Source: Curvibacter lanceolatus ATCC 14669 (GTDB taxonomy: Bacteria; Pseudomonadota; Gammaproteobacteria; Burkholderiales; Burkholderiaceae_C). From it: 64,000 nt of DNA. Positions 10,626-40,959 of the stretch are shown here, piece after piece. The notes under the pieces were generated by a model. It did not search any database, was not told where the DNA came from, and saw nothing but the letters and a program-made list of their open reading frames with translations. The DNA lies in NCBI RefSeq assembly GCF_000381265.1, contig NZ_KB906264.1, positions 124,001 through 188,000 on the forward strand, read 5' to 3'. The translations under genes were made by a program, and so were the position numbers. Numbering within the stretch: the first letter of the stretch is position 1; each line of letters starts with the position of its first letter.

Positions 10626-11284
10626 TTGCCCCCCTTGGCCTGCCGCTGGCTGGCCACTTCATCCGGATCCAGATAACGGAAGGTTCGGGCCGTGGCATCC
10701 ATCACCAATGTCCCATCCTTACCCGGACCCAAGGTCAGGTTGTTCAGGGTCACGATGCGTGACAGATGAGCCACATCGGAGGCAAAAAAGCCGATGTCAT
10801 GGTATTTGCCCGTGACGCGGATCGAGATCGGCAACTCAGCGTAATACTCTTTGACCGCCATCTGCCCGGGGCGGAACAACTCGAACTGCAGACTGCGCCC
10901 CAGACCGGCCTGATTGATGTCAGATAACAAGGCCGACATTTCCGCCTTGCCCGGCAATTGCTTTTCCAATTGATTCACATACTGCAGAACCTGCTCGCGC
11001 TGCTTTTTCAACGCATCCAGATTCACCGCTTTGGTCAACTTGGCACTGAAATCAGTCTTGAGTTTTTCTTCAGTCAGCACTTCTTGTTCCAGCTCTGCCT
11101 GGAAATCGGTGAGCCAAGCGAACCACGCCACGATGACCACCGCAGCGGCGGCACACACAAAAGTCAGATAACGCGGAAACGCCGGCCACGCCGAAGGATC
11201 TTTGGGGTCGAGGTCGGAAAACTGGGACCTCGCCTGCTCCAACAGAGCAGGAAAATCGATTGAAAGCTTGGTGTTGATCGCCAT
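10622..11284 (-). CDS. pilO: type IV pilus inner-membrane platform protein PilO
   Basis: 220 aa from the ATG at 11284 (MAINTKLSIDF). A GTG at 11296 that overlaps the pilN stop is an alternative start. The layout is the PilO one: a short cytoplasmic segment (FSDLDPKDPSAWPAFPRYL), one membrane helix (VCAAAAVVIVAWFAWL), a coiled coil, and a C-terminal ferredoxin-like domain (FELFRPG, then YYAELPISIRVTGKYHDIGFFASDVA). It forms heterodimers with PilN. Confidence 0.95.
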   Translation of the reverse strand: MAINTKLSIDFPALLEQARSQFSDLDPKDPSAWPAFPRYLTFVCAAAAVVIVAWFAWLTDFQAELEQEVLTEEKLKTDFSAKLTKAVNLDALKKQREQVLQYVNQLEKQLPGKAEMSALLSDINQAGLGRSLQFELFRPGQMAVKEYYAELPISIRVTGKYHDIGFFASDVAHLSRIVTLNNLTLGPGKDGTLVMDATARTFRYLDPDEVASQRQAKGGK

Positions 11285-13209: not shown

Positions 13210-15618
13210 ATGGCACGCTCCACCCCCAAGAACCCTCAGGAGTCCCCTCGCACCGGCTCGCCAGCGAGAACTCACTGGGCGGTACGGGTGCTGCTGTGGC
13301 TGGCCGGGTTGGCGCTGGCAGGCTTGCTGAGCGTGCTGATGCTGGTGGCCGTGGCCCTGGCGGTGGCCTACCCCAACCTGCCCGACATCACCGACCTGTC
13401 TGACTACCAGCCCAAGCTCCCCTTGCGCGTCTATTCGGCAGACGGCGCGCTGCTGGGTGAATTCGGTGAGGAGCGTCGCAACCTGACGCCCATCAAGGAC
13501 ATCCCGAAGATCATGAAGGACGCCGTGCTGGCGGTCGAAGATGCACGCTTCTATCAGCACGGCGGGGTGGACTACATCGGCATGTTCCGCGCCGGCCTGG
13601 CCAACCTGGGCCGGGTCAAGAGCCAGGGGGCCTCGACCATCACGATGCAGGTGGCGCGCAACGTCTACCTCTCCTCCGAGAAGACCTTCACCCGCAAGAT
13701 CTACGAAATCCTGCTCACCTTCAAGCTTGAGCACATGCTGAGCAAGGATCAGATCCTCGAGATCTACATGAACCAGATTTTTCTGGGCAACCGCGCCTAC
13801 GGCTTCTCGGCCGCGGCCGACACCTATTTTGGCAAGCCTCTGAAAGACATCACGGTGGCCGAGGCCGCCATGCTGGCCGGCCTGCCCAAGGCCCCGTCGG
13901 CCTACAACCCGATCAGCAACCCCAAACGGGCTCGCATCCGGCAGCAATACATCATCGACCGGATGGAAGAGAACGGCTTCATCACCAAAGCGCAGGCCGA
14001 TGATGCCCGCAACGAGGCCTTGCGCATCAAGTTCGGCCCCGACAGCTCGCGCATCCACGCCGAGTACGTGGCCGAAACCGTGCGCCAATTGGTGCTCACG
14101 CAATACGGAGCCGAGGCCTACACGCGGGGCCTGAACGTCTACACCTCGATCAATGCAGCCGACCAGGACACGGCCTACCGCGCGCTGCGCAAGGGCATCA
14201 TGGACTACGAGCGGCGTCAGGTGTACCGGGGCCCCGAGCGCTTCATCAACCTACCCGGCAACCCCAAAGAGCTGGACGAGGCCATCGACGACGCCTTCTC
14301 CGACCACCCTGACAACGGCGATGTGATGGCCGCCGTGGTGTTGGATGCCAACCCCAAGAAAATCACCGCGGTACGCCCCAACGGCGACAGCGTCGAAATC
14401 ACCGGTGATGGCTTGAAACCCGCGCAATCGGGCCTGTCTGACAAAGCCCCTCCCAACATCCGGCTGCGCCGAGGCGCTGTGATCCGTGTGGTGAAGACGC
14501 CCAAGGACACCTGGGAGATCACCCAGTTGCCCGAGGTGGAAGGCGCTTTTGTGGCTGTGGACCCGCGCAGCGGGGCCATCAAGGCCCTGGTCGGCGGCTT
14601 CGATTTCGACAAGAACAAGTTCAACCATGTGACCCAGGCCTGGCGCCAGCCAGGCTCGAGCTTCAAGCCCTTCATCTATTCGGCCGCGCTCGAAAAGGGT
14701 TTTGGACCGGCCACCGTGGTGAACGACGCGCCGCTGTTCTTTGATGCCGGCACCACCGGCGGGCAGCCTTGGGAACCGAAGAACTACGACGGCACCTTCG
14801 AAGGCCCGATGACCCTGCGCCGGGGTCTGGCCAAGTCCAAGAACATGATTTCGATCCGGGTGTTGCAATCGATTGGCGCGCGCTACGCCCAGGACTGGAT
14901 CACCCACTTCGGCTTTGAAGCCGAAAAGCACCCGCCCTACCTGACCATGGCGCTGGGTGCGGGCTCCGTCACGCCGATGCAGATGGTGATGGCGTACTCG
15001 GTGTTCGCCAACGGGGGCTACCGGGTCAACCCCTGGGTGATCGATCACATCACCGACCAGAAGGGCAAGCTGCTGGTGCAGAGCAAGACGCCCGCGCTGG
15101 ACGAAAACCCGCGCGCCATCTCCCCGCGCAATGCCTTCATGATGGACAGCCTGCTGCAGGAAGTAGCCCGCTCGGGCACGGCGGCCAAGGCCCAGGCCAC
15201 CCTGAAGCGCCCCGACATCTACGGCAAGACCGGCACCACCAACGACTCCATGGACGCCTGGTTTGCGGGCTTTCAACCCACGCTGGCGGCGGTGACCTGG
15301 ATTGGCTACGACACCCCGCGCAAGCTGGGGGATCGAGAAACCGGGGGCGGCCTGAGCCTGCCGGTGTGGATCACCTTCATGGAACGCGCGCTCAAGGGCG
15401 TGCCGGTCAGCGAGCCCAGCGCCCCCGAAGGCGTGGTCAACGTGGGGGGTGAATGGTATTTTGAAGAGTTCGCCCGCGGCAACAGCGTGAGCAGCCTGGG
15501 CCTGGACGACAAGGGCGGCAGCGCCGGGGTGGCCCCGCCTGCGGCAGCCACCGGGGGCGCCCACCCGCCTGCACCGGCAGACGAGCGCTCACGCATCCTC
15601 GACCTTTTCAGGAACTAG
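13210..15618 (+). CDS. mrcA: penicillin-binding protein 1A (bifunctional transglycosylase/transpeptidase)
   Basis: 802 aa from ATG 13210. It polymerises and cross-links peptidoglycan in the periplasm. It has a cytoplasmic tail, one TM helix (VLLWLAGLALAGLLSVLML), then GT51 transglycosylase motifs (AVEDARFYQHGG with the catalytic Glu, QGASTITMQVARN, RKIYEILLTFKLE). An OB-like insert follows, then the transpeptidase with PGSSFKPFIY (SxxK Ser), SKN in LAKSKNMISIR, and KTGTTN. The C-terminal tail is Gly/Pro/Ala-rich. It is divergent from pilM, the standard betaproteobacterial context. The stop codon runs straight into the 89-bp repeat array. Confidence 0.96.
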   Translation: MARSTPKNPQESPRTGSPARTHWAVRVLLWLAGLALAGLLSVLMLVAVALAVAYPNLPDITDLSDYQPKLPLRVYSADGALLGEFGEERRNLTPIKDIPKIMKDAVLAVEDARFYQHGGVDYIGMFRAGLANLGRVKSQGASTITMQVARNVYLSSEKTFTRKIYEILLTFKLEHMLSKDQILEIYMNQIFLGNRAYGFSAAADTYFGKPLKDITVAEAAMLAGLPKAPSAYNPISNPKRARIRQQYIIDRMEENGFITKAQADDARNEALRIKFGPDSSRIHAEYVAETVRQLVLTQYGAEAYTRGLNVYTSINAADQDTAYRALRKGIMDYERRQVYRGPERFINLPGNPKELDEAIDDAFSDHPDNGDVMAAVVLDANPKKITAVRPNGDSVEITGDGLKPAQSGLSDKAPPNIRLRRGAVIRVVKTPKDTWEITQLPEVEGAFVAVDPRSGAIKALVGGFDFDKNKFNHVTQAWRQPGSSFKPFIYSAALEKGFGPATVVNDAPLFFDAGTTGGQPWEPKNYDGTFEGPMTLRRGLAKSKNMISIRVLQSIGARYAQDWITHFGFEAEKHPPYLTMALGAGSVTPMQMVMAYSVFANGGYRVNPWVIDHITDQKGKLLVQSKTPALDENPRAISPRNAFMMDSLLQEVARSGTAAKAQATLKRPDIYGKTGTTNDSMDAWFAGFQPTLAAVTWIGYDTPRKLGDRETGGGLSLPVWITFMERALKGVPVSEPSAPEGVVNVGGEWYFEEFARGNSVSSLGLDDKGGSAGVAPPAAATGGAHPPAPADERSRILDLFRN

Positions 15619-16060
15619 GGCCCCCACGCTCCCTCACTTCGTGTGGTCGCTGCCCCCCAAGGGGGCCCAGCCCGCCTTCGGGCGGCCGGGCGCCGGGCTG
15701 ATCTCGGGCCCCCACGGTCGCGCACTTCGTGTCACTCCCTGCCCCCCGGGGGGGCCCAGCCCGCCTTCGGGCGGCCGGGCGGCGGGCTGATCTCGGGCCC
15801 CCACGGTCGCGCACTTCGTGTCACTCCCTGCCCCCCGGGGGGGCCCAGCCCGCCTTCGGGCGGCCGGGCGGCGGGCTGATCTCGGGCCCCCACGGTCGCG
15901 CACTTCGTGTCACTCCCTGCCCCCCAGGGGGGCCCAGCCCGCCTTCGGGCGGCCGGGCGGCGGGCTGATCTCGGGCCCCCACGGTCGCGCACTTCGTGTC
16001 ACTCCCTGCCCCCCAGGGGGGGCCAGCCCGCCTTCGGGCGGCCGGGCGCCGGGCTGACCG
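15619..16060 (+). repeat. five tandem copies of an 89-bp GC-rich repeat
   Basis: A unit containing CACGGTCGCGCACTTCGTG recurs with the marker CAC at 15713, 15802, 15891 and 15980 (exact 89-bp period). A diverged first copy lies at 15625 (88 bp before). Each unit contains the stem-loop CCGCC-TTCG-GGCGG with a UUCG-type loop and an outer AGCCCGCC/GGCGGGCT pairing. The last copies differ by only a few substitutions, so amplification is recent. The small ORFs in the array are by-products of the repetition. Confidence 0.95.
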
Positions 16061-18179: not shown

Positions 18180-18193
18180 TTGATGTGCATCAA
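18180..18193 (+). promoter_or_regulatory. FNR/ANR box in a class II promoter
   Basis: TTGATGTGCATCAA is an exact match to the FNR consensus TTGAT-N4-ATCAA. A -10-like TACAGT lies at 18215-18220, giving a start near 18227 and placing the box centre (18186.5) close to -41. That is the class II activator position for the gene starting at 18259. Confidence 0.85.
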
Positions 18194-18258
18194 GTCACAG
18201 AAATGCCACTTCCGTACAGTGCAGGTTCCGGCTGTGTCGATGGCCGCAGGGAATATGC

Positions 18259-19086
18259 ATGCCTTTGGAACTTTACCGCGACGCTGACCACGCCTGCCTG
18301 ATGTTCACCGACCTCATCGAGGAGGGTGGGCAGGCGGTGCAGGCCAACCAGTTCCTGATCGTGGACGATGGCACGGGCGCCATCATCGACCCAGGTGGCA
18401 ACCTGGCGTTCAACGAGCTGTTCCTGGGCATGTCCAAGCACTTTCCACCCAGCAAGCTCAGCTACCTGCTGGCCTCGCACGCCGACCCCGACATCATCGC
18501 CTCGCTGGACCGCTGGATGACCTCCACCCGCGCCAAGCTGGTGATTTCGCGCATCTGGGAGCGTTTTGCACCCCACTTTGCCAAGGTCGGCAAGACCGAA
18601 GACCGCGTGATCGGCGTGCCGGATGGCGGCGGCAAGCTGCGCATCGGGCGCCATGAAATGTGGCTGCTGCCCGCGCACTTCATGCATTCCGAGGGCAACT
18701 TCCAGTTCTATGACCCGGTCAGCCGCATCCTGTTCACCGGCGATCTGGGCGTGTCACTGACCACCGGCCAGCAGGCCCAGAAGTTCGTCACCGACCTGAC
18801 GGACCACATCCCCTTGATGGAGGGCTTTCACCGGCGCTACATGGTCTCCAACAAGATCCTGCGCCTGTGGGTGCGCATGGTGCGCCAGCTCGACATCAGC
18901 ATGCTGGTGCCCCAGCATGGCGCCCCCATCGTGGGCCAGGTCGCCATCAACCAGTTCTTTGACTGGCTGGAGAACCTGATGTGCGGCATCGACCTGTTTG
19001 ATGACCGCGCCTACCAGTTGCCGACGCTGCAGATCGACCCGCTGCGCGGCGCCCAGCCGGCCCTGCGGGCCGTGGGCGGGCACTGA
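18259..19086 (+). CDS. oxygen-binding di-iron protein (ODP, metallo-beta-lactamase fold), stand-alone
   Basis: 275 aa, cytosolic. It matches the flavodiiron-type di-iron domain and not a hydrolase. The ligand set is complete: His74-x-Asp76-x-Asp78 (SHADPD), His143 (HSEGNFQFY), Asp162 (FTGDLG) and His220 (PQHG). The flavodoxin domain of true flavodiiron reductases is absent, so oxygen sensing or binding, or reduction with a separate electron donor, is more likely than a self-contained NO/O2 reductase. The perfect FNR box upstream indicates induction when oxygen is low. It is convergent with msrQ. Confidence 0.85.
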   Translation: MPLELYRDADHACLMFTDLIEEGGQAVQANQFLIVDDGTGAIIDPGGNLAFNELFLGMSKHFPPSKLSYLLASHADPDIIASLDRWMTSTRAKLVISRIWERFAPHFAKVGKTEDRVIGVPDGGGKLRIGRHEMWLLPAHFMHSEGNFQFYDPVSRILFTGDLGVSLTTGQQAQKFVTDLTDHIPLMEGFHRRYMVSNKILRLWVRMVRQLDISMLVPQHGAPIVGQVAINQFFDWLENLMCGIDLFDDRAYQLPTLQIDPLRGAQPALRAVGGH

Positions 19087-28815: not shown

Positions 28816-29997
28816 ATGGCGAACGATTTTCTTTTCACCTCAGAATCCGTCTCTGAAGGCCACCCCGACAAGGTGGCCGACCAGATCTCCGACGCGATCC
28901 TCGATGCCATCTTCAAGCAAGACCCGCGCAGCCGCGTGGCCGCCGAAACCCTGACCAACACCGGTCTGGTCGTGCTGGCTGGCGAAATCACCACCAACGC
29001 GCACGTTGACTACATCCAGGTCGCCCGCGACACCATCAAGCGCATCGGCTACGACAACACCGAGTACGGCATCGACTACAAGGGCTGCGCCGTGCTGGTG
29101 GCCTACGACAAGCAGAGCAACGACATCGCCCAGGGCGTGGACCAGGCCAGCGACGACCACCTGAACACCGGTGCCGGCGACCAGGGCCTGATGTTCGGCT
29201 ACGCCTGCGACGAAACGCCCGAGCTGATGCCCGCCCCCATCTACTACGCCCACCGCCTGGTCGAACGCCAGGCCCAGCTGCGCAAGGACGGCCGCCTTCC
29301 CTTCCTGCGCCCGGACGCCAAGAGCCAGGTCACGATGCGCTATGTGGACGGCAAGCCGCACAGCATCGACACCGTGGTGCTGTCCACCCAGCACAGCCCC
29401 GACCAGAGCGAAACCGCCAAGAAGATGAAGGCCAGTTTCACCGAGGCCATCATCGAAGAGATCATCAAGCCCGTGCTGCCCAAAGAGTGGCTGCAGGACA
29501 CCAAGTACCTGATCAACCCCACCGGCCGCTTTGTGATTGGCGGCCCGCAAGGGGATTGCGGCCTGACCGGGCGCAAGATCATCGTCGACACCTACGGCGG
29601 CGCCTGCCCGCACGGCGGTGGTGCCTTCTCGGGCAAGGATCCGACCAAGGTCGATCGCTCGGCCGCCTACGCCGCCCGCTATGTGGCCAAGAACATCGTG
29701 GCCGCCGGCCTGGCCCGCCAGTGCCAGATCCAGGTCGCCTACGCCATCGGCGTGGCCCGCCCCATGAACGTGACCGTGTACACCGAAGGCACCGGCGTCA
29801 TCCCTGACGACCAGATCGCCCGCCTGGTGCAAGAGCACTTCGACCTGCGCCCCAAGGGCATCATCCAGATGCTCGACCTGCTGCGCCCCATCTACGAAAA
29901 AACCGCCGCCTACGGCCACTTCGGCCGAGAAGAACCCGAGTTCACGTGGGAAAGAACGGATAAAGCTGCCGCCCTGCGGGCGGCAGCCGGGCTGTAA
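28816..29997 (+). CDS. metK: S-adenosylmethionine synthase
   Basis: 393 aa from ATG 28816 ([19 protein letters not shown]). It makes SAM from methionine and ATP. The family signatures [12 protein letters not shown] (ATP-binding hexapeptide region) and [19 protein letters not shown] (P-loop-like) are intact. The upstream in-frame start at 28801 is not supported. Expression is probably SAM-regulated by the element at 28694-28756. The last codons ([11 protein letters not shown]) are GC-rich, form a hairpin at DNA level, and are repeated several times downstream. Confidence 0.97.
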
Positions 29998-30530
29998 GCC
30001 CGCCGCGCGCAAGCGCGGTATCCGTTCTTGGGCGAAGTTCATATCGCGCCAGCGATGTGAACGCAGACCAAAGAACCGACAAGGCCGCAGCGCTGCGTGC
30101 AGCGGCTGGCCTGTAAAGGCCAGCATTCGCCACAGGCAAATCTGCAGCCTTGCGGCGCAGGCTCACATCGGCACTGCCGATGTGAAGGCGCAACGCGCCG
30201 GGCCGGAGCCATAAAGCTGCAGCCCTGCGGGCTGCAGCCGGGCTGTAAGCCCGCCGCGCGCAAGCGCGGTATCCGTTCTTGGGCGAAGTTCATATCGCGC
30301 CAGCGATGTGAACGCAGACCAAAGAACCGACAAGGCCGCAGCGCTGCGTGCAGCGGCTGGCCTGTAAAGGCCAGCATTTGCCGCAGGCAAATCTGCAGCC
30401 TTGCGGCGCAGGCTCACATCGGCCCTGCCGATGTGAAGGCGCAACGCGCCGGGCCGGAGCCATCAAGCCGCAGCCAGGCAGTCAACCCGCCGCGCGCACG
30501 CGCGGTGTCCGTTCTTGGGCCAAGGCTCCA
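29954..30530. repeat. tandem hairpin-rich array built from copies of the metK 3' end
   Basis: A unit of 251 bp is repeated (marker AAGCGCGGTA at 30011 and 30262, and a degenerate third marker 236 bp later at 30502). Each 251-bp unit consists of two diverged halves of about 125 bp. Both halves begin with a sequence that would encode [11 protein letters not shown]-stop, as at the metK end. Nearly every segment is an inverted repeat: GCTGCCGCC/GGCGGCAGC, CCGCGC-GCAA-GCGCGG, TTCATATCGC/GCGATGTGAA, GCTGGCC/GGCCAGC, CACATCGGC/GCCGATGTG. GAACGGATA and TATCCGTTC bracket three hairpins, like a cloverleaf. The first copy is part of the metK coding sequence. Confidence 0.9.
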
Positions 30531-30755: not shown

Positions 30756-32375
30756 GTGCCTGCCGCCCCCTTTTCAGCCCAGCCCCCCGGCCAGCACAGC
30801 ACGCGCCTGCTCATCGTGGCCTATTGCCTGGTGTGGGCCCTGGTGCACTGGTTCGCCTACCCGAACCTGGACCCCTACAACGACATGCTGGAGAACTTTG
30901 CCTGGGGGCAGACCTTCGAGTGGGGCACTTTCAAGCACCCGCCCTTCTTTGTCTGGGCGGTCGAACTCTGGTTTGCCGCCATGCCGCGCAGTGCACTGTC
31001 GTACAAGCTGCTGTCGTATGTGAACGTGGCCATCGGCCTGTGGGGGGTGGCGCATCTGGCGCGACTGCTGGGCTTGCGCAAGATGGCCCCCAGCGCCGTG
31101 CTGCTGCTGATGTGGACCCTGCCCTACACCACGCTGGCGGCCAAATTCAATGCCAACGCCATATTGCTGTCGGTCTGGCCCTGGACGGCCGTGGCCTGGC
31201 TGGCCAGCCTGCGCCAGAGCGGGCGCCCCGGCCTGACCGCCTCGGTGTGGTTGGGCTTTCTGGGCGCGGTGTGCATGCTCAGCAAATACTACAGCGGCGT
31301 GTTCCTGTTCTCGCTGTTCGTCACGGCCCTGCTGCGGCGTGACATGCGCCGCTGGTTCGGCAGCCTGCGCCCCTATGTGGCCCTGCTCAGCCTGGCGGTG
31401 TTCCTGCTGCCCCATGCCTGGTGGTTGTGGCAGCACGACTACCCCACCCTGCGCTATGCCGCCGACCAGGGCGGCGGCCATGTGGAGTGGCACTTCCTGC
31501 TGCATTTCGCCCTCACCCCGCTGCTGTTCGTGCTGCTGGCCTGGCTGCCCTGTGTGCTGGTGTTTGCCTGGCAGGCCAGCCTGGCCGGCCCCGGCCGCTG
31601 GCTCAAGCTGCTGCGCCTGATCCCGCGCCTGGCGTGGCGCAGCTGGCTGCCCCTGCACTGGCAGGACACCGTGTTCTGGCTGGCGGCCCTGCCCGGCGCC
31701 GTGACCTTGCTGGCCGGCATCGCGGGCATGGCCGAGCTGTCCAGCCCCTGGGCCATCCCCATCATCTATGCCTTCCCGCTGCTGTGGCTGCGCAACCTGG
31801 AGCAGGCCACCACCCCGACCACCGCCACCGGGTCGGACACGGACACCCCCACCACACGCAGCCTGCAGGCCCTGCAGGGCTCGGCCTGGCCCGTGCTGGC
31901 CGGCGTGCTGCTGGTCGGTTTGGTGCTGGCCGTGTCCCAGGCCAGCCAGGGCAAGCGCAGCTATTACGAGGCCAATGAAGTGGCGGCCGAGCGCATGGTG
32001 CAGGGCTGGCAGCAACGCCACCCCGACCTGCCCCTGGGCTGGACCGGCGGCGAATGGGCCGAGAACGCCATGGTGGCCTTCTTTGTGTCCGACCAGGTGC
32101 GCGCCCTGCCCGGCATGCCCGACGAGTGGCCCACCACCCTGGCCCCCCACCCCGGCTGGGAGCACCAGGGCGGGCTGATGATCTGCCCGCGCGGCCCCTT
32201 GAAAAAGGCCCAGGTCTACGAGGCCAGCAACTGCGAGGTCGAAGTGCAGGAATGGCTGGAGAAGACCGGCCGCCCCATCCGGCCGCTGTGGGTGACGGCG
32301 GCCCGCTCGGGCTGGCGCTTCCCGCACCCGATGGAGTTCGCCTGGGTGGTCTACGACGTGCTGCCCACGCCCTGA
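30756..32375 (+). CDS. ArnT-like glycosyltransferase family 39 membrane protein
   Basis: About 539 aa if translation begins at the GTG at 30756; the true start is uncertain because there is no ATG and no clear Shine-Dalgarno. The open frame extends upstream into the repeat array. TM1 begins soon after (RLLIVAYCLVWALVHWFAY) and is followed by the periplasmic loop with acidic residues YPNLDPYNDMLENFAWGQ. This resembles the Asp/Glu motif of GT39 enzymes that use polyprenyl-phosphate sugars. About ten TM helices and a C-terminal periplasmic domain follow. It probably glycosylates an envelope lipid or polymer in the periplasm; the acceptor is unknown. The 3' end overlaps psd (opposite strand) by 25 bp. 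Confidence 0.75.
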   Translation: MPAAPFSAQPPGQHSTRLLIVAYCLVWALVHWFAYPNLDPYNDMLENFAWGQTFEWGTFKHPPFFVWAVELWFAAMPRSALSYKLLSYVNVAIGLWGVAHLARLLGLRKMAPSAVLLLMWTLPYTTLAAKFNANAILLSVWPWTAVAWLASLRQSGRPGLTASVWLGFLGAVCMLSKYYSGVFLFSLFVTALLRRDMRRWFGSLRPYVALLSLAVFLLPHAWWLWQHDYPTLRYAADQGGGHVEWHFLLHFALTPLLFVLLAWLPCVLVFAWQASLAGPGRWLKLLRLIPRLAWRSWLPLHWQDTVFWLAALPGAVTLLAGIAGMAELSSPWAIPIIYAFPLLWLRNLEQATTPTTATGSDTDTPTTRSLQALQGSAWPVLAGVLLVGLVLAVSQASQGKRSYYEANEVAAERMVQGWQQRHPDLPLGWTGGEWAENAMVAFFVSDQVRALPGMPDEWPTTLAPHPGWEHQGGLMICPRGPLKKAQVYEASNCEVEVQEWLEKTGRPIRPLWVTAARSGWRFPHPMEFAWVVYDVLPTP

Positions 32376-33262
32376 TCGCCTGCGGGCAACGGATCTTCCG
32401 GCAGGTGCATCAAGGGCTGCCCGGCCCGCACCCGCAGGCCCGTGGCCACGCCCTCGACCAGGCGGAAGCCCTTCGGGGCGAACACGATGATGGTCGAGCC
32501 GTGCTGGAACCAGCCCAGCTCCTGCCCCTTTTCCACCGGCGCATCGCAAGGCAGTTCGTGCGGGCCTGGGTAGCGGCCATGCAGCAGCAGGTCCAGTGCG
32601 TGCAGGCGCAGGCTGGCCACCAGGATGGCCGCCACCGGCACCAGGGCCAGCGGGTGCCCGCCCCGCTCCAGCCGAAGATGCAGGGCCGCGCGCTCGTTGC
32701 GGCAGAACAGGCGCTCCACCCGCTTGAGCGCGATCGGGTTCACGTTCCAGGTGTCCCCCGTCAGGTGCGTCACGTGCTGCAGACGGGCGTCGTGCGGCGC
32801 ATGGAAGCGGTGATACATGGCCGAGGTCAGGCGCAGCGTCACATAGCAGCCATCGCGAAAAGCCTCGGCGCGGGCCGGGTCGCCGAACAGATCCTCCAGT
32901 CGGTACGGAAAGCCCTTGGCCTGCCACACCTGCAGCCCGGCCACCTCGCCACAGGCGCCCACGATGCCGTCGCAGGGGCTGGCCAGCACCTCGGGGTCAG
33001 GGTCGAAGGGGCGCGCACCCGGTTTCAGCTCGCGGGTGAAGCAGTCGTGCAGGCTGTCAAAGCGCGGCTTGCGCGCCTCGCTCAGGTCCAGCTCGGTGAA
33101 CAGGCGCCACACCGCGATCGAGGCGTCGCGCACCAGGGGCTGGCGGATCTGGCTGAACCAGCCCATGAAGCGCGTCAGCGCGATGCGCGGCACGCGGTTG
33201 GTGAGCAGAAAGTTCAGGTCTTCCTGCTGCAGCAGGCGATCACGCAGGTTTTGGAGTTTCAT
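32351..33262 (-). CDS. psd: phosphatidylserine decarboxylase proenzyme
   Basis: 303 aa from ATG 33262. It converts phosphatidylserine to phosphatidylethanolamine at the inner membrane. The charge-relay residues are visible: Asp98 in SPCDGIVG and His154 in MYHRFHAPHD. The autocleavage site Gly255-Ser256-Thr257 (FQHGSTIIVF) generates the pyruvoyl group from the Ser. The residue before GST is His where Leu is usual in E. coli. It is divergent from the aminotransferase gene. Confidence 0.94.
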   Translation of the reverse strand: MKLQNLRDRLLQQEDLNFLLTNRVPRIALTRFMGWFSQIRQPLVRDASIAVWRLFTELDLSEARKPRFDSLHDCFTRELKPGARPFDPDPEVLASPCDGIVGACGEVAGLQVWQAKGFPYRLEDLFGDPARAEAFRDGCYVTLRLTSAMYHRFHAPHDARLQHVTHLTGDTWNVNPIALKRVERLFCRNERAALHLRLERGGHPLALVPVAAILVASLRLHALDLLLHGRYPGPHELPCDAPVEKGQELGWFQHGSTIIVFAPKGFRLVEGVATGLRVRAGQPLMHLPEDPLPAGDQGVGSTS

Positions 33263-33334
33263 CAAGATGTCAATCAGTCAAGTTACAGATGAGGCATCGC
33301 GCTTTCGCGATTTGGAAAATCCGGACCTCTTCAA

Positions 33335-34987
33335 ATGGACGAAACACTGGCTTTCTGGGCCCTGGGCGGCGCGGCCTTTGCCGCCACCCTGCCCCGGCTG
33401 ATCCGCCGACTGGAACTGTCGCGGGCCAAGCACCCCTCGCTCACCGGCCATTCGCGCATGGCCAAACGGGTGGCCTCGTGGCTGCCCGGCTACGCCTACG
33501 GCGAGGAGCGTTTCTTCAACTCCGACGGCGCGCCGGCCGAGGTGGCCGCGCAGCGGCGCCTGGCCCTGCAGCAGTTGGGCGACACGCTGGTGGCCCGCTG
33601 CCCGCGCACGCTGGCCCTCACCGCCAGCGCGCGCGACGGCCTGCCCGACCTGCAGTTCACCGGCGCCTACCGCGTGCCTTTCCAGTACAGCCCGCTGCTG
33701 CGCCAGCATGTGCAGGTGGGTGCCTTCATGGAAGCCTCCGAAGGCGTCACCCTGACCGACCTGGACGGCAACAGCTACTACGACCTGACCGGCTCCTACG
33801 GCGTCAATGTGTTCGGCGTCGACGTGTACCGCCAGTGCATTGCCGAGGGCAGCGCCCGCGCCCAGGCCCTGGGCCCGGTGCTGGGCAGCCTGCACCCCAG
33901 CGTGGCCGCCAACGTGGCACGCCTGCAGCGCATCTCGGGACTGGACCAGGTGTCCTTCCACATGTCGGGCACCGAAGCCGTGATGCAGGCCGTGCGCCTG
34001 GCCCGCTACCACACCGGCCGGCGCCACCTGGTGCGCTTTTGCGGCGCCTACCATGGCTGGTGGGAAGACGTGCAGCCCGGCCCCGGCAACCCCCTGCCCC
34101 CGCGCGAGACCTACACCCTGCGCGACATGCACGAGAACAGCCTGCAGGTGCTGCGCAAACGCCGCGACATCGCCTGCGTGCTGGTCAACCCGCTGCAGGC
34201 CCTGCACCCCAACAAGGCGGCGCCGGGCGACTCGTCGTTGGTGGACAGCTCGCGCAGCGCCGGCTACGACCGCGCCGCCTACACCGAGTGGCTCCAGCAG
34301 CTGCGCGAGGTCTGCACCGAGCGCGGCATCGTGCTGATCTTTGACGAGGTGTTCCTGGGTTTCCGCCTGGCCCCGGGCGGCGCCCAGGAATACTTCGGCG
34401 TCAAGGCCGACATGGTCACCTACGGCAAGACCCTGGGCGGCGGCCTGCCGGTGGGCGTGGTCTGCGGCAAGCGTGAGCTCATGAAGCGCTACCGCGAAGA
34501 TCGGCCGGCCGACCTGTGCTTTGCCCGCGGCACCTTCAACTCGCACCCCTATGTGATGGGCGCCATGGCGGCCTTCCTGGATTACCTGGAAACCCCCGAG
34601 GCCCAACTCATGTACGTGGAGCTGGACGCCACCCAGAACCGCCGCGCCGCGCAGCTCAACCAGCGGCTGCAGGCCATCGGCGCCCCGGTGCAGGTGGCCA
34701 ACATGTCCTCGGTGTGGACCGTGAGCTACACCCGCCCCTCGCGCTACAACTGGATGCTGCAGTTCTACCTGCGTGAACAGGGGCTGGCCCTGAGCTGGGT
34801 CGGCACCGGCCGGCTGATCTTCAGCCTGAACTACACCGAAGCCGATTTCGAAGAGGTCTGCCGCCGCTTTGTCGCAGCCTGCCAGGCCATGGAGGCCGGT
34901 GGCTGGTGGTGGCAGGACGCCGCGCAGACCAACAAGTCGATCAAGCGCAGCATCTTCAAGGAGATGCTGGCGCATCGTCGCGGCTGA
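33335..34987 (+). CDS. class III PLP-dependent aminotransferase (glutamate-1-semialdehyde aminomutase-like) with N-terminal extension
   Basis: 550 aa, about 110 residues longer than typical GSA aminomutases. The N-terminus starts with a hydrophobic stretch (FWALGGAAFAATLPRL) and a helical region before the fold. PLP features are SGTEA (211-215), Asp337 in LIFDEVFLGF and the Schiff-base Lys365 in TYGKTLGGGLPVG. It probably is not HemL itself, given the extension and context. The neighbours are psd, a DUF962-like membrane protein, a GT4 enzyme and lplT. Transamination of an aldehyde or keto group on a lipid or lipid precursor is a reasonable inference. Confidence 0.75.
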   Translation: MDETLAFWALGGAAFAATLPRLIRRLELSRAKHPSLTGHSRMAKRVASWLPGYAYGEERFFNSDGAPAEVAAQRRLALQQLGDTLVARCPRTLALTASARDGLPDLQFTGAYRVPFQYSPLLRQHVQVGAFMEASEGVTLTDLDGNSYYDLTGSYGVNVFGVDVYRQCIAEGSARAQALGPVLGSLHPSVAANVARLQRISGLDQVSFHMSGTEAVMQAVRLARYHTGRRHLVRFCGAYHGWWEDVQPGPGNPLPPRETYTLRDMHENSLQVLRKRRDIACVLVNPLQALHPNKAAPGDSSLVDSSRSAGYDRAAYTEWLQQLREVCTERGIVLIFDEVFLGFRLAPGGAQEYFGVKADMVTYGKTLGGGLPVGVVCGKRELMKRYREDRPADLCFARGTFNSHPYVMGAMAAFLDYLETPEAQLMYVELDATQNRRAAQLNQRLQAIGAPVQVANMSSVWTVSYTRPSRYNWMLQFYLREQGLALSWVGTGRLIFSLNYTEADFEEVCRRFVAACQAMEAGGWWWQDAAQTNKSIKRSIFKEMLAHRRG

Positions 34988-35021
34988 GCAATGGCCAAAG
35001 AGCCGTACTGAGCCAGTCGCC

Positions 35022-35633
35022 TCAGTGCTGCTTGCGGGCGTGGGCCATCGGGTCCAGCAGCTCGCCGCGCAGCAGGTAGAGGGGTGCCTTGTGGTACAGG
35101 TACACGTCATGGAAGGGGTCGGTCAGGATCTTGGTCATCCACACCAGGCCGGTCTGCACGTCCTTCAGGAAGAACAGGTGCACGGTGCGGAACAGCAGGC
35201 CGCCCACCCCCACCACCAGCCAGGCCCAGCCCACCTGGTGCCAGAAGGCCGAGAACGATTCGGCCGGTGCGATCAAGCCGCCCAGGCTGGGGCTCAGCCA
35301 CAGCGCCACGGGGGCAGCCACCCACAGGGCCATCAACACCACCTTGCGGCGCAGGTTGTAGCCCACCTTGATCTCTTCCTTGTGCTCATGCGTGGCCTGG
35401 TTCACCTCGTCATAGCCGCGCGGCTCGAAAAAGAAATGACCCGACTGGCGCGACACCATGGACACGCCCCAGGCCAGCAGGGCGGCGCCCGCCGGGTCGC
35501 TGAACAGCAGTCCATAGGCCACCAGAAAACTCAAAGCGCTGATCAGGTGCAGGGTCTGGTTGATGCGGCTGTGGTGGTAGTAGCGGTGGTCGTCCCAGCG
35601 CTGCGTTTTCAAGGCACTCAGAAAATCTTTCAC
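35022..35633 (-). CDS. DUF962/Mpo1-like membrane protein
   Basis: 203 aa from a GTG at 35633, chosen because AAAGGA lies 6 bp upstream; the open frame further upstream has no family similarity. The pattern YYHHSRINQTLHLISAL...WGVSMVSRQSGHFFFEP resembles the His-rich motif of DUF962/Mpo1 proteins (HxxxxN...H and QxxGHxxxE). In yeast, Mpo1 is an Fe-dependent dioxygenase acting on 2-hydroxy fatty acids. A second His-rich stretch follows (NQATHEHKEEIK), then about three more TM helices, longer than Mpo1. The role in lipid modification is an inference. Confidence 0.55.
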   Translation of the reverse strand: MKDFLSALKTQRWDDHRYYHHSRINQTLHLISALSFLVAYGLLFSDPAGAALLAWGVSMVSRQSGHFFFEPRGYDEVNQATHEHKEEIKVGYNLRRKVVLMALWVAAPVALWLSPSLGGLIAPAESFSAFWHQVGWAWLVVGVGGLLFRTVHLFFLKDVQTGLVWMTKILTDPFHDVYLYHKAPLYLLRGELLDPMAHARKQH

Positions 35634-35706
35634 CTTCGATCCTTTGACGTGTGAGCAGGCCCGGTGGGCCGGTGGGTGGTTTTTTGTGACGGCCCTCAGG
35701 CGGGCG

Positions 35707-35725
35707 CGTGACCGGATGGTGACCA
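35707..35725 (-). promoter_or_regulatory. candidate PhoB-like direct repeat upstream of the DUF962-like gene
   Basis: GTGAC occurs at 35708 and 35719, exactly 11 bp apart. On the minus strand this reads GGTCAC-CATC-CGGTCAC, the 7+4+7 geometry of a Pho box (CTGTCAT-N4-CTGTCAT) with GTCA in both halves. A single CTGTCAC half-site also lies at 35767-35773 on the plus strand before the GT4 gene. Confidence 0.35.
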
Positions 35726-35806
35726 GCGAATATGAAAGTCCGGTGACGCACTTCCTGAACGCAGGGCTGTCACACAACGGTTGCAATCGGGCCCCACCAT
35801 CAGCGC

Positions 35807-37060
35807 ATGAACGCCCCGGCTGAACACCCCATCGTGGTGGACGAATTCCCTGCCCTGCGGCGCTCGCTGCGGGTCTCGATCGTCACCGAAACCTACCCGC
35901 CCGAAGTCAACGGGGTGGCCCGTACCCTGGCCTGCGTGGTCGAGGGCTTGCGCGAGCGCAACCACGAGATCCAGCTGATCCGCCCCAACCAATCGAAAGC
36001 CGAGACCCGGGGCGAGCAGGCCAGCGACGACGTGCTGTTCCACGAGGTGCTGATGCGGGGCCTGCCCATTCCGCGCTACCCGCACCTGCGCATGGGCCTG
36101 ACCTCCAAAAAGACGCTGGTCAGCCTGTGGGCACGGCGGCGGCCCGATGTGGTGCACATCGCCACCGAAGGCCCCATGGGCTGGTCGGCCCTGCAGGCAG
36201 CCGTGCAGCTCAAGCTGCCGGTGTGCTCCGACTTTCGCACCAACTTCCACGCCTACAGCAAGCACTACGGCATGGGCTGGCTGCACAAGCCCATCATGGC
36301 CTACCTGCGCAAGTTCCATAACCTCACGGCCTGCACCATGACCCCCGACGAGGGCCTGCGCCAGGAGCTGACCGACTACGGCTTTCACAACGTCGAGGTG
36401 GTGTCGCGTGGCGTGGACACCCGCTTGTTCGACCCGGCGCGGCGCAGTGCCGCCCTGCGGCAGAGTTGGGGCGTGGCCCCCGACGACCTGGTGGTGCTGC
36501 ACGTGGGGCGCCTCGCACCCGAGAAGAACCTGGGCACCCTGACCATGGCCTTCGAGGCCATCCGCCGCGTGCAACCCCGCGCACGCCTGGTGCTGGTGGG
36601 CGACGGCCCCTCGCGCAAGGAGCTGCAGGCCCGCTGCCCCGATGCGATCTTTGCCGGCATGCGCCATGGCGAAGACCTGGCCGCCCATTACGCCAGCGGC
36701 GACCTGTTCGTGTTCCCCAGCGTCACCGAGACGTTTGGCAACGTGACCCTGGAGGCCCTGGCCAGCGGCCTGCCGGTGCTGGCCTACGACTACGCCGCCG
36801 CCAGCCAGCTGGTGCAGACCGGGCGCCACGGCGCCCTGGCCCCCTTTGGCAACATGAACGATTTCGTGCAACTGGGCGCCCGGCTGGCCGCCGACCCGGC
36901 CGCCCTGCATGAGATGGGGCGGCAGGCCCGCGAGGCCGCCTGCCAGGCCAGCTGGGAGCGCATCATCAGCCGCATCGAGGGCCTGTACCACGCCCTGACC
37001 GAAGGGCGCCCCCTGCCCCAGCCGGAATCGGCACCGGCAAGGCCGCGCCTGGCCGTCTGA
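35807..37060 (+). CDS. glycosyltransferase family 4 (MgtA/SqdX-like)
   Basis: 417 aa GT-B fold. The N-terminal donor/acceptor domain begins VSIVTETYPPEVNGVARTL, with VVHIATEGPMGWSA and FRTNFHAYSKHYGMGWL. The C-terminal domain has VVLHVGRLAPEKNLGTL and the E-x7-E motif ETFGNVTLEAL. The segment order matches glycosyltransferases that add sugars to diacylglycerol or other lipids (MgtA, SqdX, PimB-type), but the sugar and acceptor are not determinable. It lies between the DUF962-like gene (divergent) and lplT (convergent). Confidence 0.85.
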   Translation: MNAPAEHPIVVDEFPALRRSLRVSIVTETYPPEVNGVARTLACVVEGLRERNHEIQLIRPNQSKAETRGEQASDDVLFHEVLMRGLPIPRYPHLRMGLTSKKTLVSLWARRRPDVVHIATEGPMGWSALQAAVQLKLPVCSDFRTNFHAYSKHYGMGWLHKPIMAYLRKFHNLTACTMTPDEGLRQELTDYGFHNVEVVSRGVDTRLFDPARRSAALRQSWGVAPDDLVVLHVGRLAPEKNLGTLTMAFEAIRRVQPRARLVLVGDGPSRKELQARCPDAIFAGMRHGEDLAAHYASGDLFVFPSVTETFGNVTLEALASGLPVLAYDYAAASQLVQTGRHGALAPFGNMNDFVQLGARLAADPAALHEMGRQAREAACQASWERIISRIEGLYHALTEGRPLPQPESAPARPRLAV

Positions 37061-37107: not shown

Positions 37108-38358
37108 TCAGCCGGCAGGCAGGGTCAGCACGCGGTGCCGGCAACGCCACCACAACACGGCCATGCTGGCCGCGATCAGCAGGCCGAACACCCCCATCAG
37201 CGGCACCACCGGCAACTCCAGCGCCAGCAGGCCGGCATAGCCCGCCAGCATCACCAGGATGCTCAGATTCTCGTTGTAGCCCTGCACGGCAATCGAGCGC
37301 CCGGCCGTCAGCAGCTGGTGCCCGCGGTGCTGCAACAGCGCATTCATGGGCACCACCAGCACGCCCCCCACCAAGCCGACCAGCGCCAGCAGGGGCAGGG
37401 CCACGGCAAAGCGCTGCGTCAGCGACACGGCGGTGATCAGCAGCCCCAGCAAGACCCCGGCCGGCAACACCCGCACCGCCTGGTGCAGCGCCACCCGGTG
37501 GCCGGCCACGCCGGCGCCCAGCACCACGCCCACCGCCACCATGGCCTGCAGGTAGGCCGCCTGGTCCAGCGGCAGGCGCAGCGACTCCTGGGCCCAGCGC
37601 AACACCGCAAACTGCAGCGTGGCACCCACGCCCCAGAACAACGTGGTCACCCCCAGCGACAGGCCGCCCTCGGCATCGCGCCACAGCAAACGGTTGCTGG
37701 CGGCAAAGTCGCGCAGCAAGGCCAGGGGGTGGATCTCGCGTCGGGCGTAACGGGCGCCGCTGTCCGGCACCCCCAGTTGCAGCAGCGCGGCCACGCCATA
37801 CACGCTGAGCAACAGGCCCAGCGAGCCGGCCAGGGCCGAATCCAGCGGCAGCCCCCAGGCCAGCAAGCCCTGCCGGGCCTGGCTGGCCAGCGCCGAGCCA
37901 CACACCAGGGCACTCACCAAAAAGCCCCCCGTGACCGCCCCCAGCAAGGCGGCGCAGACGATGGAGATCTCGATCCAGCTGTTGGCCACCACCAGCTGCC
38001 GCGCCGGCACCATCTCAGTCACCAGCCCGTATTTGGCCGGGGCGTAGCCCGCTGCGCCGAGGCCCACCACCGCATAGGCCAGCACGGGGTGCACGCCCAC
38101 CAGCAGGCCCAACACGCCCAGCACCTTGATGGCGTTCATCCAGGCCATCAGGCGGGCCTTGGGCATGGCGTCGGCCAGCGGGCCCGCCACCGGCGCCAGC
38201 ACCACATACGACAGCGTGAACGCGAACTTCAGCAAAGGCGCCCACCAGCCCGGCACGCCCTGCTCCTGCAGCAGGGCCATGGTGACGATCAGCAAGGCGT
38301 TGTCGGCCAGGGCAGAGGTGAACTGGGCCGCAATCAACAAGGAGAAACCGGTGGGCAT
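37108..38358 (-). CDS. lplT: lysophospholipid transporter LplT
   Basis: 416 aa from ATG 38358, MFS fold with 12 TM helices. It flips lysophospholipids into the cytoplasm for re-acylation. Diagnostic stretches are the N-terminal FSLLIAAQFTSALADNALLI, LKFAFTLSYVVLAPVAGPLADAMPK, YGLVTEMVPARQLVVANSWIE and the C-terminal VPMNALLQHRGHQLLTAGRSIA. The usual partner gene aas is not adjacent. The long upstream region contains the 11-bp repeat array. Confidence 0.92.
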   Translation of the reverse strand: MPTGFSLLIAAQFTSALADNALLIVTMALLQEQGVPGWWAPLLKFAFTLSYVVLAPVAGPLADAMPKARLMAWMNAIKVLGVLGLLVGVHPVLAYAVVGLGAAGYAPAKYGLVTEMVPARQLVVANSWIEISIVCAALLGAVTGGFLVSALVCGSALASQARQGLLAWGLPLDSALAGSLGLLLSVYGVAALLQLGVPDSGARYARREIHPLALLRDFAASNRLLWRDAEGGLSLGVTTLFWGVGATLQFAVLRWAQESLRLPLDQAAYLQAMVAVGVVLGAGVAGHRVALHQAVRVLPAGVLLGLLITAVSLTQRFAVALPLLALVGLVGGVLVVPMNALLQHRGHQLLTAGRSIAVQGYNENLSILVMLAGYAGLLALELPVVPLMGVFGLLIAASMAVLWWRCRHRVLTLPAG

Positions 38359-38424
38359 GCGCGTGAGCCTGAGCGGCCGTGGAGACGGCCTGATGGAGTG
38401 AATCCCCCATTGGGACCGGAGGCG

Positions 38425-38484
38425 ATGACGCCGCCATGACGTCAACATGACGCGGTCATGACGCCTGCATGAACCCGCAGTGAG
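38425..38484 (-). promoter_or_regulatory. 11-bp phased direct-repeat array (Pho box-like) upstream of lplT
   Basis: ATGACG starts at 38425, 38436, 38447 and 38458. ATGAAC at 38469 and GTGAGG at 38480 continue the series at an exact 11-bp step. On the minus strand (towards lplT, 67 bp away) each unit reads (C)GTCAT, the core of the PhoB half-site, which also recurs every 11 bp. A response regulator of the OmpR/PhoB family is the natural candidate. The rest of 38359-38655 shows no gene. Confidence 0.65.
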
Positions 38485-38655
38485 GCGGCATCCCGATGCA
38501 CCGGTTTGGCGCCACCCGGAAAGAAAGCATCACTCCGGTGCACGCCAACACCAAAATGCACCACATTGAGGCAGCAGAACGCCCAACCCTGGGGCAGCCG
38601 CCGACCGTGGCGGCACGGATCCTGCTGTGACAGCCGCTGCAGCAGCTTGAGACCC

Positions 38656-40959
38656 ATGTCAGACCTGAATCAAAAGAGCGGCCACCTTGCCCGCACGGTG
38701 ATGCCGCCCCCCGCCCCCTCCCGCACCCAGGCGTACCCCTCCGCGCGCCCCTCGGCGCGGGCCTTCGCGCGCACGCCCCAGGTCCTGGAAGCCGCTGCGG
38801 GCTTTGGCCAGTGGGCCCATGCCGAAGGCTGGCTGAGCCTGTCGCCCCAGGCGGCCGAATTCTTCGATGCCCAGGGCCAGCTCGAAGGCCCGCTGGACGA
38901 CGCCCTGACCCAAGTGGTGATGGACGACCTGGTGCGCCTGCGGCCGCGCTTCAAGGCCCACGCCGGCCAGCTCTGGCAACAGGACCTGCGCGTGATCAGC
39001 CGCACCCAGGGCCTGCGCTGGCTGCGCATGACGGCCTTGCCGGCCGACCCCGACCAGCCCGACCTGCAGCAAGGCATCGTGCAGGACGTGACCGAACTCA
39101 AGCACGCCCAGATGCGCGAGCGCCTGGGCTTCGAGCTGACCGAGTTCCTGGTCGGCTCGCACTCGCTGGGCAGCGCCATCCTGAATGTGATCCAGGGGGT
39201 GTGCAACAGCCTGGGCTGGGATTGGGGCGCCTACTGGGCCCTGGAAACCGACCCGGCAGGCCAGCCCCAGCTGGCCTGCCACCAGTTCTGGCACCCCAGC
39301 GAACACGACATGAGCGCCTTCAGCCAGGCCAGCCAGCAACTGCGCCTGCGCCCCGGCGAGGGCCTGGTGGGCCGGGTGTGGCAAAGCGGCCAAGCCACCT
39401 GGGTGGAAGACATGGCCACCGACCCGGGCTTTGTGCGCCGCGCCAGCGCCCGCGCCAGCCACCTGCGCTCGGGCTACATCTTTCCGGTCACCTTCCAGAG
39501 CGGCGACGGCTCGGACCACCGCCCCGGGGTGCTGGAGTTCTACAGCAGCCTGGCGCGCCAGCCCGATGCCCAGCTGCCCCTGCTCTCGGGCACCATCGGC
39601 GCCCTGCTGGCCCAGACCGCGCAGAAGCTGGAGCAACAGGCCACGGTGCTGCACCTGTCCCAGGTCGATGGCCTGACCGGGCTGGCCAACCGGCGCCACT
39701 TCTACGAGGTGCTGGGCGCCACCTGCCGCCAGGCCGAGGCCCTGGGCCAGCACTTCGGCCTGATGTTCATCGACCTGGACCGCTTCAAACCTATCAACGA
39801 CGCCTTCGGCCATGACGCCGGCAACACCGTGCTGCGCGAGTTCGCACAACGCCTGCAGGCCCTGGCACCCGCCGGTGCCACCGCCGGACGCCTGGGCGGC
39901 GATGAATTTGCCCTGCTGCTGCCCGGGGTCGACCTGCAGGCCTTTGCCGAGACGGCTGAGCGGGTGCGCCAGGCCGCCCGGCGCCCCATGCTGCACGAAG
40001 GCGTGGAGCTGAGCCTGAGCGCCAGCGTGGGCATCAGCCTGTTCCCGGAGAACGGGCGCACCCCGCCCGAGCTGCTGCGCAGTGCCGATGCGGCCATGTA
40101 CCGCATCAAGCAAAACGGGCGCGACGGCAGCGACTTCTTCTCGCAGACCAGCCCGCACGCCCTGGCCGAACAACAGAACATCCTGATGCAGCGCCTGCAG
40201 ATGGCGCAGGACCTGCACCTGGCCCTGCAGCGCCAGGAGCTGTTCCTGCACCACCAGCCCATCTTCGACCAGGCCAGCGGCCGCCTGCACGGCACCGAGG
40301 CCCTGGTGCGCTGGCGCCGGCCGGATGGGCAACTGGTGCCGCCCGATGTGTTCATCCCGCTGGCCGAAGAGGCGCACCTGATCGTGCAGATCGGCCAATG
40401 GGTGGCCGCCCAGGCCTGTACCGACCTGGCCACCCTGGAGGCCGCCGGGCTCAAAGGGCTGCGGGTGCATGTGAACATGGCCTCGCCCGAATTCCACCGC
40501 GATGCCCTGCCCGAAGAGCTGCTGGCCCTCACGCGCCGGCACGGCCTGGCACCGGCCCAGCTCTCGCTGGAGCTGACCGAAACCCTGGTGATGGAACAGC
40601 CCGCACAGGTCACTGCCGTGATGGGCCGGCTGCGCGCGGCCGGCTTCGAGATCAGCCTGGACGATTTCGGCCAGGGGCATTCGGCGCTGTCGCTGCTCAA
40701 GCAACTGCCGCTGAACACCCTGAAAGTCGACCGCTGCTTTGTGCGCGGGCTGGGCGAAGACGTTAGCGACGAGGCCATTGTGCGCACCATTCTCGACCTG
40801 GGCCGGCACCTGGGCCTGCGCGTGATCGTGGAGGGCGTGGAAACGGCCGCCCAGCTGCAACGGGTGCGCGCCTGTGGCGGCCAGTTCGTGCAGGGCTACC
40901 TGCTGGCGCGGCCGATGCCCTTGGGCGATCTGCTGCAGCGCTTCGCGCCCCCAAGCTGA
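38656..40959 (+). CDS. PAS/GAF-linked diguanylate cyclase/phosphodiesterase (GGDEF-EAL)
   Basis: 767 aa from ATG 38656, no TM segments. After an Ala/Pro/Arg-rich N-terminus there is a PAS-like region (about 40-150) and a GAF domain (about 160-330, GEGLVGRVWQSGQATWVED). A GGDEF domain follows with an intact GGDEF near 414 (GRLGGDEFALLLPG), then an EAL domain with intact EAL near 547 (GTEALVRWRRPDG), ELTETLVM, DDFGQGHSAL and EGVET. The RxxD inhibitory site before GGDEF is absent. DDFGQGHSA deviates from the usual DDFGTGYSS, which may matter for phosphodiesterase activity. Cytosolic c-di-GMP turnover is expected. It is convergent with recD, 2 bp apart. Confidence 0.92.
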   Translation: MSDLNQKSGHLARTVMPPPAPSRTQAYPSARPSARAFARTPQVLEAAAGFGQWAHAEGWLSLSPQAAEFFDAQGQLEGPLDDALTQVVMDDLVRLRPRFKAHAGQLWQQDLRVISRTQGLRWLRMTALPADPDQPDLQQGIVQDVTELKHAQMRERLGFELTEFLVGSHSLGSAILNVIQGVCNSLGWDWGAYWALETDPAGQPQLACHQFWHPSEHDMSAFSQASQQLRLRPGEGLVGRVWQSGQATWVEDMATDPGFVRRASARASHLRSGYIFPVTFQSGDGSDHRPGVLEFYSSLARQPDAQLPLLSGTIGALLAQTAQKLEQQATVLHLSQVDGLTGLANRRHFYEVLGATCRQAEALGQHFGLMFIDLDRFKPINDAFGHDAGNTVLREFAQRLQALAPAGATAGRLGGDEFALLLPGVDLQAFAETAERVRQAARRPMLHEGVELSLSASVGISLFPENGRTPPELLRSADAAMYRIKQNGRDGSDFFSQTSPHALAEQQNILMQRLQMAQDLHLALQRQELFLHHQPIFDQASGRLHGTEALVRWRRPDGQLVPPDVFIPLAEEAHLIVQIGQWVAAQACTDLATLEAAGLKGLRVHVNMASPEFHRDALPEELLALTRRHGLAPAQLSLELTETLVMEQPAQVTAVMGRLRAAGFEISLDDFGQGHSALSLLKQLPLNTLKVDRCFVRGLGEDVSDEAIVRTILDLGRHLGLRVIVEGVETAAQLQRVRACGGQFVQGYLLARPMPLGDLLQRFAPPS

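Follow-up and report, generated by a model that had tools for sequence, protein, structure and literature searches.

PhoB operators (Pho boxes) have the consensus TGTCA-N6-TGTCA. Pho-box sequences given in print include CTGTCAT and CTGTCATNNNNCTGTCAT (passages of PMC4415409 and PMC8528852), and complex operators made of multiple units have already been described (passages of PMC4415409). In Pseudomonas aeruginosa, glycosyltransferase genes with Pho boxes and plcP remodel lipids (the PlcP-Agt system; passages of PMC8528852), and in Escherichia coli LplT flips lysophospholipids for re-acylation by Aas (passages of PMC11416262). The words "phosphate" and "starvation" are absent from the main text of the latter paper. 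The Pho box is a known kind of operator, and a PhoB link of lplT was not found in print: among the matches listed for the open-access literature there was no lplT-phosphate link in Gram-negatives, and no lplT-PhoB link beyond a co-mention in PMC10715205 (polymyxin, Klebsiella). For Staphylococcus aureus, PMC10404611 mentions lplt twice and phosphate starvation once.

The locus described here lies in a stretch of 64,000 nucleotides (hereafter the window) of the 6.83-Mb genome of Curvibacter lanceolatus ATCC 14669, in which an array of six half-sites precedes lplT2, a gene for a lysophospholipid-transporter paralogue. Like the E. coli-type Pho box (passages of PMC4415409), the array consists of direct repeats of 11 nt that share a conserved TGTCA-like core of 7 nt and are set head to tail, and like the pstS operator of the same genome it is placed 10 nt before a putative -10 hexamer; unlike the E. 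coli-type box it has the core CGTCA instead of TGTCA, and it is a predicted operator. LplT2 belongs to the same protein family as E. coli LplT (passages of PMC11416262); unlike the LplT-Aas system, no Aas-like gene was found among the frames read beside lplT2. Like the PlcP-Agt system, the neighbouring gene island has a glycosyltransferase gene with a Pho-box-like site, and a plcP-like gene was found near lplT2 in 4/47 loci (L043, L060, L061, and L102), whereas the PlcP-Agt passages of PMC8528852 name no LplT, no aminotransferase, and no p35022 (a membrane protein of the island). Based on the comparative sequence analysis below we consider it very probable that the array is a PhoB operator of the lplT2 promoter and that lplT2 and its neighbours are under phosphate-starvation control.

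The repeat array and the Pho-box-like sites of the genome

The array (38425..38490, minus strand), proposed as an operator on the basis of its sequence, its match to a pstS/ppx matrix and its retention in relatives, has units at 38425 (ATGACGCCGCC), 38436 (ATGACGTCAAC), 38447 (ATGACGCGGTC), and 38458 (ATGACGCCTGC), each with an exact copy of ATGACG, and at 38469 (ATGAACCCGCA) and 38480 (GTGAGGCGGCA), with the degenerate copies ATGAAC and GTGAGG, all at a step of strictly 11 bp. Read on the minus strand these are four CGTCAT, one TTCAT, and one degenerate CTCAC, oriented toward lplT2, the sixth (distal) unit being weak in this genome (CCTCAC). A Pho box is made up of two or more direct repeats of 11 nt that share a conserved core; six such units were found. 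The array was also reported by Tandem Repeats Finder with periods of 11 and 22. Further tandem repeats in the window were an 89-bp repeat at 15618-16057 (five copies, 96% matches) and a 251-bp repeat at 29960-30475 (two copies, 97% matches), the latter just past a SAM-synthetase-like frame.

No exact four-copy or two-copy match arose when the 64 kb was dinucleotide-shuffled 200 times and both strands were searched, and the ATGACG triple at 11-bp steps with up to three mismatches had 3 matches in the window, all in the array, compared to a mean of 0.01 in 100 shuffles. Direct reading and the shuffles thus confirmed the four perfect and two near ATGACG words of the initial annotation. That annotation had also regarded the array as longer than most Pho boxes; its six units do exceed the two at pstS of this genome, but multi-unit operators are known (passages of PMC4415409), and its length alone is therefore not new.

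Across the whole genome, the exact triple GTCAT-N6-GTCAT-N6-GTCAT was found in the array only (two overlapping matches), and up to three mismatches gave 67 places versus 20 for the reversed control pattern. The surroundings were examined for a chosen part of these 67 places. Among the genes with an array-like place in front were ppk1, one coding for a phosphatase of the PhoX family, one of cpdB type (624.6 bits, cut-off 486), one resembling phytase genes, an OlsB-like/phosphoesterase pair, and a p35022 paralogue. Other genes so preceded, such as those of a PP2C phosphatase and of a 4HB_MCP/HAMP/Hpt/HATPase protein, have no evident link to phosphate. By the start of the latter lies a second near-perfect array (TTCAT, GTCAT, GCCAT, and GTCAT at 11-bp steps; G000:C27:24379-24416, L189:4380-4417). 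The names OlsB and PlcP were taken from Pfam folds or from best matches that fall short of the curated cut-offs (149 bits for OlsB, cut-off 350); a plcP-like gene is also present elsewhere in the genome, away from lplT2. One PhoB scored over the cut-off (327.7 bits, cut-off 296.2), and its gene is located beside pst.

For comparison with the Pho boxes of phosphate genes a matrix was built from 20 boxes of pstS/ppx of ten genomes, with no lplT site included. The training boxes were the best matches to the consensus TGTCA-N6-TGTCA in each pstS-ppx intergenic region, and the matrix is therefore consensus-guided. One poor ppx box (genome G015, 8/10 core matches) was kept in the matrix for the scan of the window and excluded for the family counts (19 boxes). 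In the genome studied here, the pstS operator consists of two half-sites (CTGTCACGCAACTGTCAT, 10 nt, TAGAGT), and the box of the divergent ppx is built in the same way. The top matrix scores in the window (both strands) were at 18192 and 35749 (14.9 bits each) and at 10776 (13.1 bits), followed by the array in 4th (12.5 bits), 5th (11.0 bits), 9th (9.7 bits), and 21st (7.8 bits) place, so that with ranks 4, 5, and 9 in 64 kb its core resembles the organism's own pst boxes. Nineteen of the 20 training boxes scored 18.6-28.0 bits and the poor one 11.2 bits. The array boxes score below those 19 because their half-sites are CGTCA, most pstS/ppx boxes having TGTCA, and these low scores count against the reading as a PhoB operator. 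The joint top site at 18192-18209 is followed after 50 bp by a frame with its start at 18259 and has no TAGAGT-like hexamer at 10 nt. A matrix derived without lplT sites thus picked out the array, in support of the Pho-box geometry that had been suggested for it, and the boxes of pstS and divergent ppx, together with the array-like places before phosphate genes, agree with the expectation that a similar motif occurs at pst/pho genes.

lplT2, its proposed promoter and the conservation of the array

The lplT2 gene (37108..38358, minus strand; 416 aa) was assigned by the LplT equivalog model NF008397 of NCBIfam, which its product matched with 471.2 bits (cut-off 297). The protein is paralogous to the canonical lysophospholipid flippase and is predicted to act in transport. 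The closest named record was Curvibacter gracilis ATCC BAA-807, with an lplT 99% identical. A longer ORF start at 38448 reaches into the array, but homologue matches begin with MPTGF at position 38358; a coding origin of the repeat was therefore rejected. In a midpoint-rooted FastTree phylogeny of 131 sequences, lplT2 fell into a clade of 51 tips with a support of 1.0 (34 window and family orthologues, 17 named), which excludes the canonical LplT of this genome. Promoter stretches of 660 bases were absent from the tree because they contain no full gene. The canonical lplT copy adjoins a frame that we take to be alanine racemase. A third LplT-like frame (L287; G000:C10:213804-215660) matched an acyl-ACP-phospholipid acyltransferase model over both its MFS part and the part that follows (472.7 bits, below the cut-off) and is perhaps a flippase-acyltransferase fusion.

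The array lies 67 bp upstream of the lplT2 start at 38358. The proposed -10 hexamer CCCAAT (38409..38414, minus strand) follows the proximal half-site at a distance of 10 nt, equal to that of TAGAGT at pstS. In 18/67 orthologue promoters a hexamer ending in AAT lies exactly 10 nt after the half-site core, and no other offset from 4 to 18 gave more than 3. As a -10, CCCAAT is poor, which counts against the PhoB-operator reading, as does a generic scan of 38300-38700 that detected no sigma-70 promoter.

The array was kept in the close genomes G002 and G003, each with five units, the alignment showing an 11-column gap that corresponds to one unit fewer than here. Compared with C. gracilis this genome has one 11-bp unit more, C. 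gracilis and G003 having five. The distal unit reads GCGTCAT in G002 and GCGTCAC in G003. Among the three closest genomes the array cores are kept and the spacers differ, and the stretch that begins with the proximal core and includes CCCAAT hardly varies.

Promoters of the family were scored over 250 bp upstream using the 19-box matrix, and boxes were considered significant at p ≤ 0.05 by 200 shuffles each. A significant box was present in 45/67 promoters of lplT2 orthologues (52-100% identity), some with match starts (query residue 3 or 4) not moved to the exact start codon, versus 0/27 of the canonical lplT paralogues (27 of 28 fetched, L274 left out). Fresh shuffles gave the same 45/67 (36/50 at identities of at least 60%, 9/17 below). 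Further matches at 50-57% identity had the box in 10/29, or 55/96 overall, several of these 29 beginning with ATGAAA instead of ATGCCN and possibly representing another LplT group, with all 29 absent from the tree. Since the genomes are related, the promoter counts are not independent trials. Named genomes had the box in 4/12 at identities of at least 51% and in 7/58 below, some of them repeating genomes already counted, and slightly shifted windows gave 24/44 significant lplT2 promoters. These lower rates, together with the 22/67 orthologues and 19/29 distant matches without a significant box, count against the PhoB-operator reading. Boxes in the reverse direction were found in 14/67 orthologues, 4/29 distant matches, and 1/27 canonical promoters, the first two exceeding the expected 5%, which also counts against that reading. 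Half-sites at period 11 occurred in 34/67 orthologue promoters (no other period between 7 and 16 gave more than 8; canonical lplT at period 11, 0/27), and in-phase triples in 12/67 at period 11 and in none at the other periods from 7 to 16. The Pho-box trait is frequent among the nearer members of the lplT2 clade and weak among the distant ones, and the conservation in relatives that had been set as a check on the array was borne out by the orthologous and distant promoters as opposed to those of canonical lplT.

Neighbouring lipid genes

In relatives lplT2 recurs together with genes for a GT4 glycosyltransferase, p35022, a class-III aminotransferase, and a psd-like protein, which in the window occupy 32351-37060. 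The GT4 gene (35807..37060, plus strand; PF13692/PF00534/PF13439) is convergent with lplT2 and matched lipid glycosyltransferase models below their cut-offs. Beside lplT2 a GT4 relative of at least 48% identity was present in 39/47 loci (L020 and L044 come from the same genome), and its orientation varies. A Pho-box-like site with one good half-site, CTGTCAC, is upstream of GT4 (35767..35784, plus strand; rank 18, 8.1 bits). The product of p35022 (35022..35633, minus strand) is an uncharacterised, conserved membrane protein, His-rich and all-helical, of which nine homologues were aligned; it had no match in Pfam or NCBIfam, and its predicted fold, a model of moderate quality (pLDDT 74), had no PDB match at E ≤ 0.001. 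Two Pho-box-like 18-mers, from 35749 and 35725, lie upstream of it (35708..35749, minus strand; rank 2 with 14.9 bits and rank 16 with 8.2 bits). An array-like site also directly precedes its paralogue (60% identical; G000:C13, L190:3697-4302).

The aminotransferase gene (33335..34987, plus strand; PF00202) had glutamate-1-semialdehyde aminomutase as its best NCBIfam match, below the cut-off. The Pho-box-like site upstream of it (TTTCATCAAGATGTCA, 10 nt, TACAGA; 33256..33273, plus strand; rank 11, 9.4 bits) overlaps the start of a phosphatidylserine-decarboxylase-like gene (Psd paralogue; 32351..33265, minus strand; PF02666, TIGR00163 over cut-off), which is without its own box and is one of two psd-like genes in the genome, the second being at G000:C21. 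Most flanks are short, so that the aminotransferase, p35022, and psd were visible in only some of the 47 loci. Near lplT2 there was furthermore an olsB-like gene in L061 and L102 and part of ppk in L061. Significant boxes were found upstream of GT4 in 32/37, p35022 in 8/9, the aminotransferase in 6/10, plcP-like genes in 1/4, ppk in 1/1, psd in 0/10, and GGDEF-EAL genes in 0/2 promoters, the window and L039 being near-identical in these counts. The guess that neighbouring lipid genes share the control of lplT2 fits the boxes in the promoters of GT4, p35022, and the aminotransferase.

Alternative readings and the proposed role

Another response regulator of the OmpR/PhoB family with direct repeats of 11 bp as its target, for instance CreB or an uncharacterised paralogue, could bind the array. 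The genome encodes many regulators of this family (the PhoB model had 108 matches, the majority under its cut-off) and the half-sites differ from the preferred TGTCA, but the matrix derived from pstS/ppx still picks out the array along with 45/67 orthologous promoters, and the spacing to the -10 is that of pstS; we regard this as unlikely. CreB itself was rejected as the binder, no protein of this genome scoring over its cut-off (best 218.1 bits, cut-off 273). Replication slippage would insert a unit just like the 11-bp one that this genome has in addition to those of G002 and G003, and the array might then be a functionless tandem repeat that arose by chance or by slippage. Against this, the three closest genomes have retained the cores but differ in the spacers, the 11-bp period extends across the clade, and the box is missing in 27/27 canonical lplT promoters, which makes such an origin very improbable. 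Least of all do we expect the divergent GAF-GGDEF-EAL gene (38656, plus strand), which shares the intergenic region with lplT2, to be the main target of the array: the half-sites face lplT2 at 67 bp, the start of the other gene is about 165 bp away, and a GGDEF-EAL relative is beside lplT2 in just 2/47 loci (L039 and L040), most loci having short flanks. Control of that gene was rejected, as its promoters had no box in its own direction.

For the PhoB operator the following mechanism is proposed. When phosphate is limiting, PhoB in its phosphorylated form would bind to the CGTCAT half-sites in head-to-tail order along a single DNA face, and up to six protomers, equal to three boxes, could occupy the array. 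The proximal half-site would replace the -35 element, with CCCAAT 10 nt downstream as the -10, and bound PhoB would recruit RNA polymerase to lplT2. Given that comparable sites precede lplT2 and its lipid-gene neighbours in many relatives, lplT2 probably takes part in the phosphate-starvation response. Such control would extend to lplT2, GT4, p35022, and the aminotransferase, most likely for the exchange or recycling of membrane phospholipids, and an LplT paralogue in the same regulon as lipid-remodelling genes suggests recycling of lysophospholipids during lipid exchange.

A more far-reaching scheme, which we put forward tentatively and consider rather doubtful, is that the island lplT2-GT4-p35022-aminotransferase-psd2 is an undescribed PhoB-controlled pathway swapping phospholipids for a phosphorus-free amino- or glycolipid, in which LplT2 might flip lysophospholipids inward for phosphate stripping and not for re-acylation, and the array of sub-optimal half-sites might set a high cooperative threshold that is passed in severe starvation only.

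The PhoB-operator reading predicts that low phosphate induces lplT2 and not the canonical lplT. The number of units, six here versus five in C. gracilis and G003, offers a natural series on half-site count at a PhoB promoter. In a large bacterial family, the locus would place a lysophospholipid-transporter paralogue in the phosphate-starvation regulon, together with lipid genes that recur as a set.
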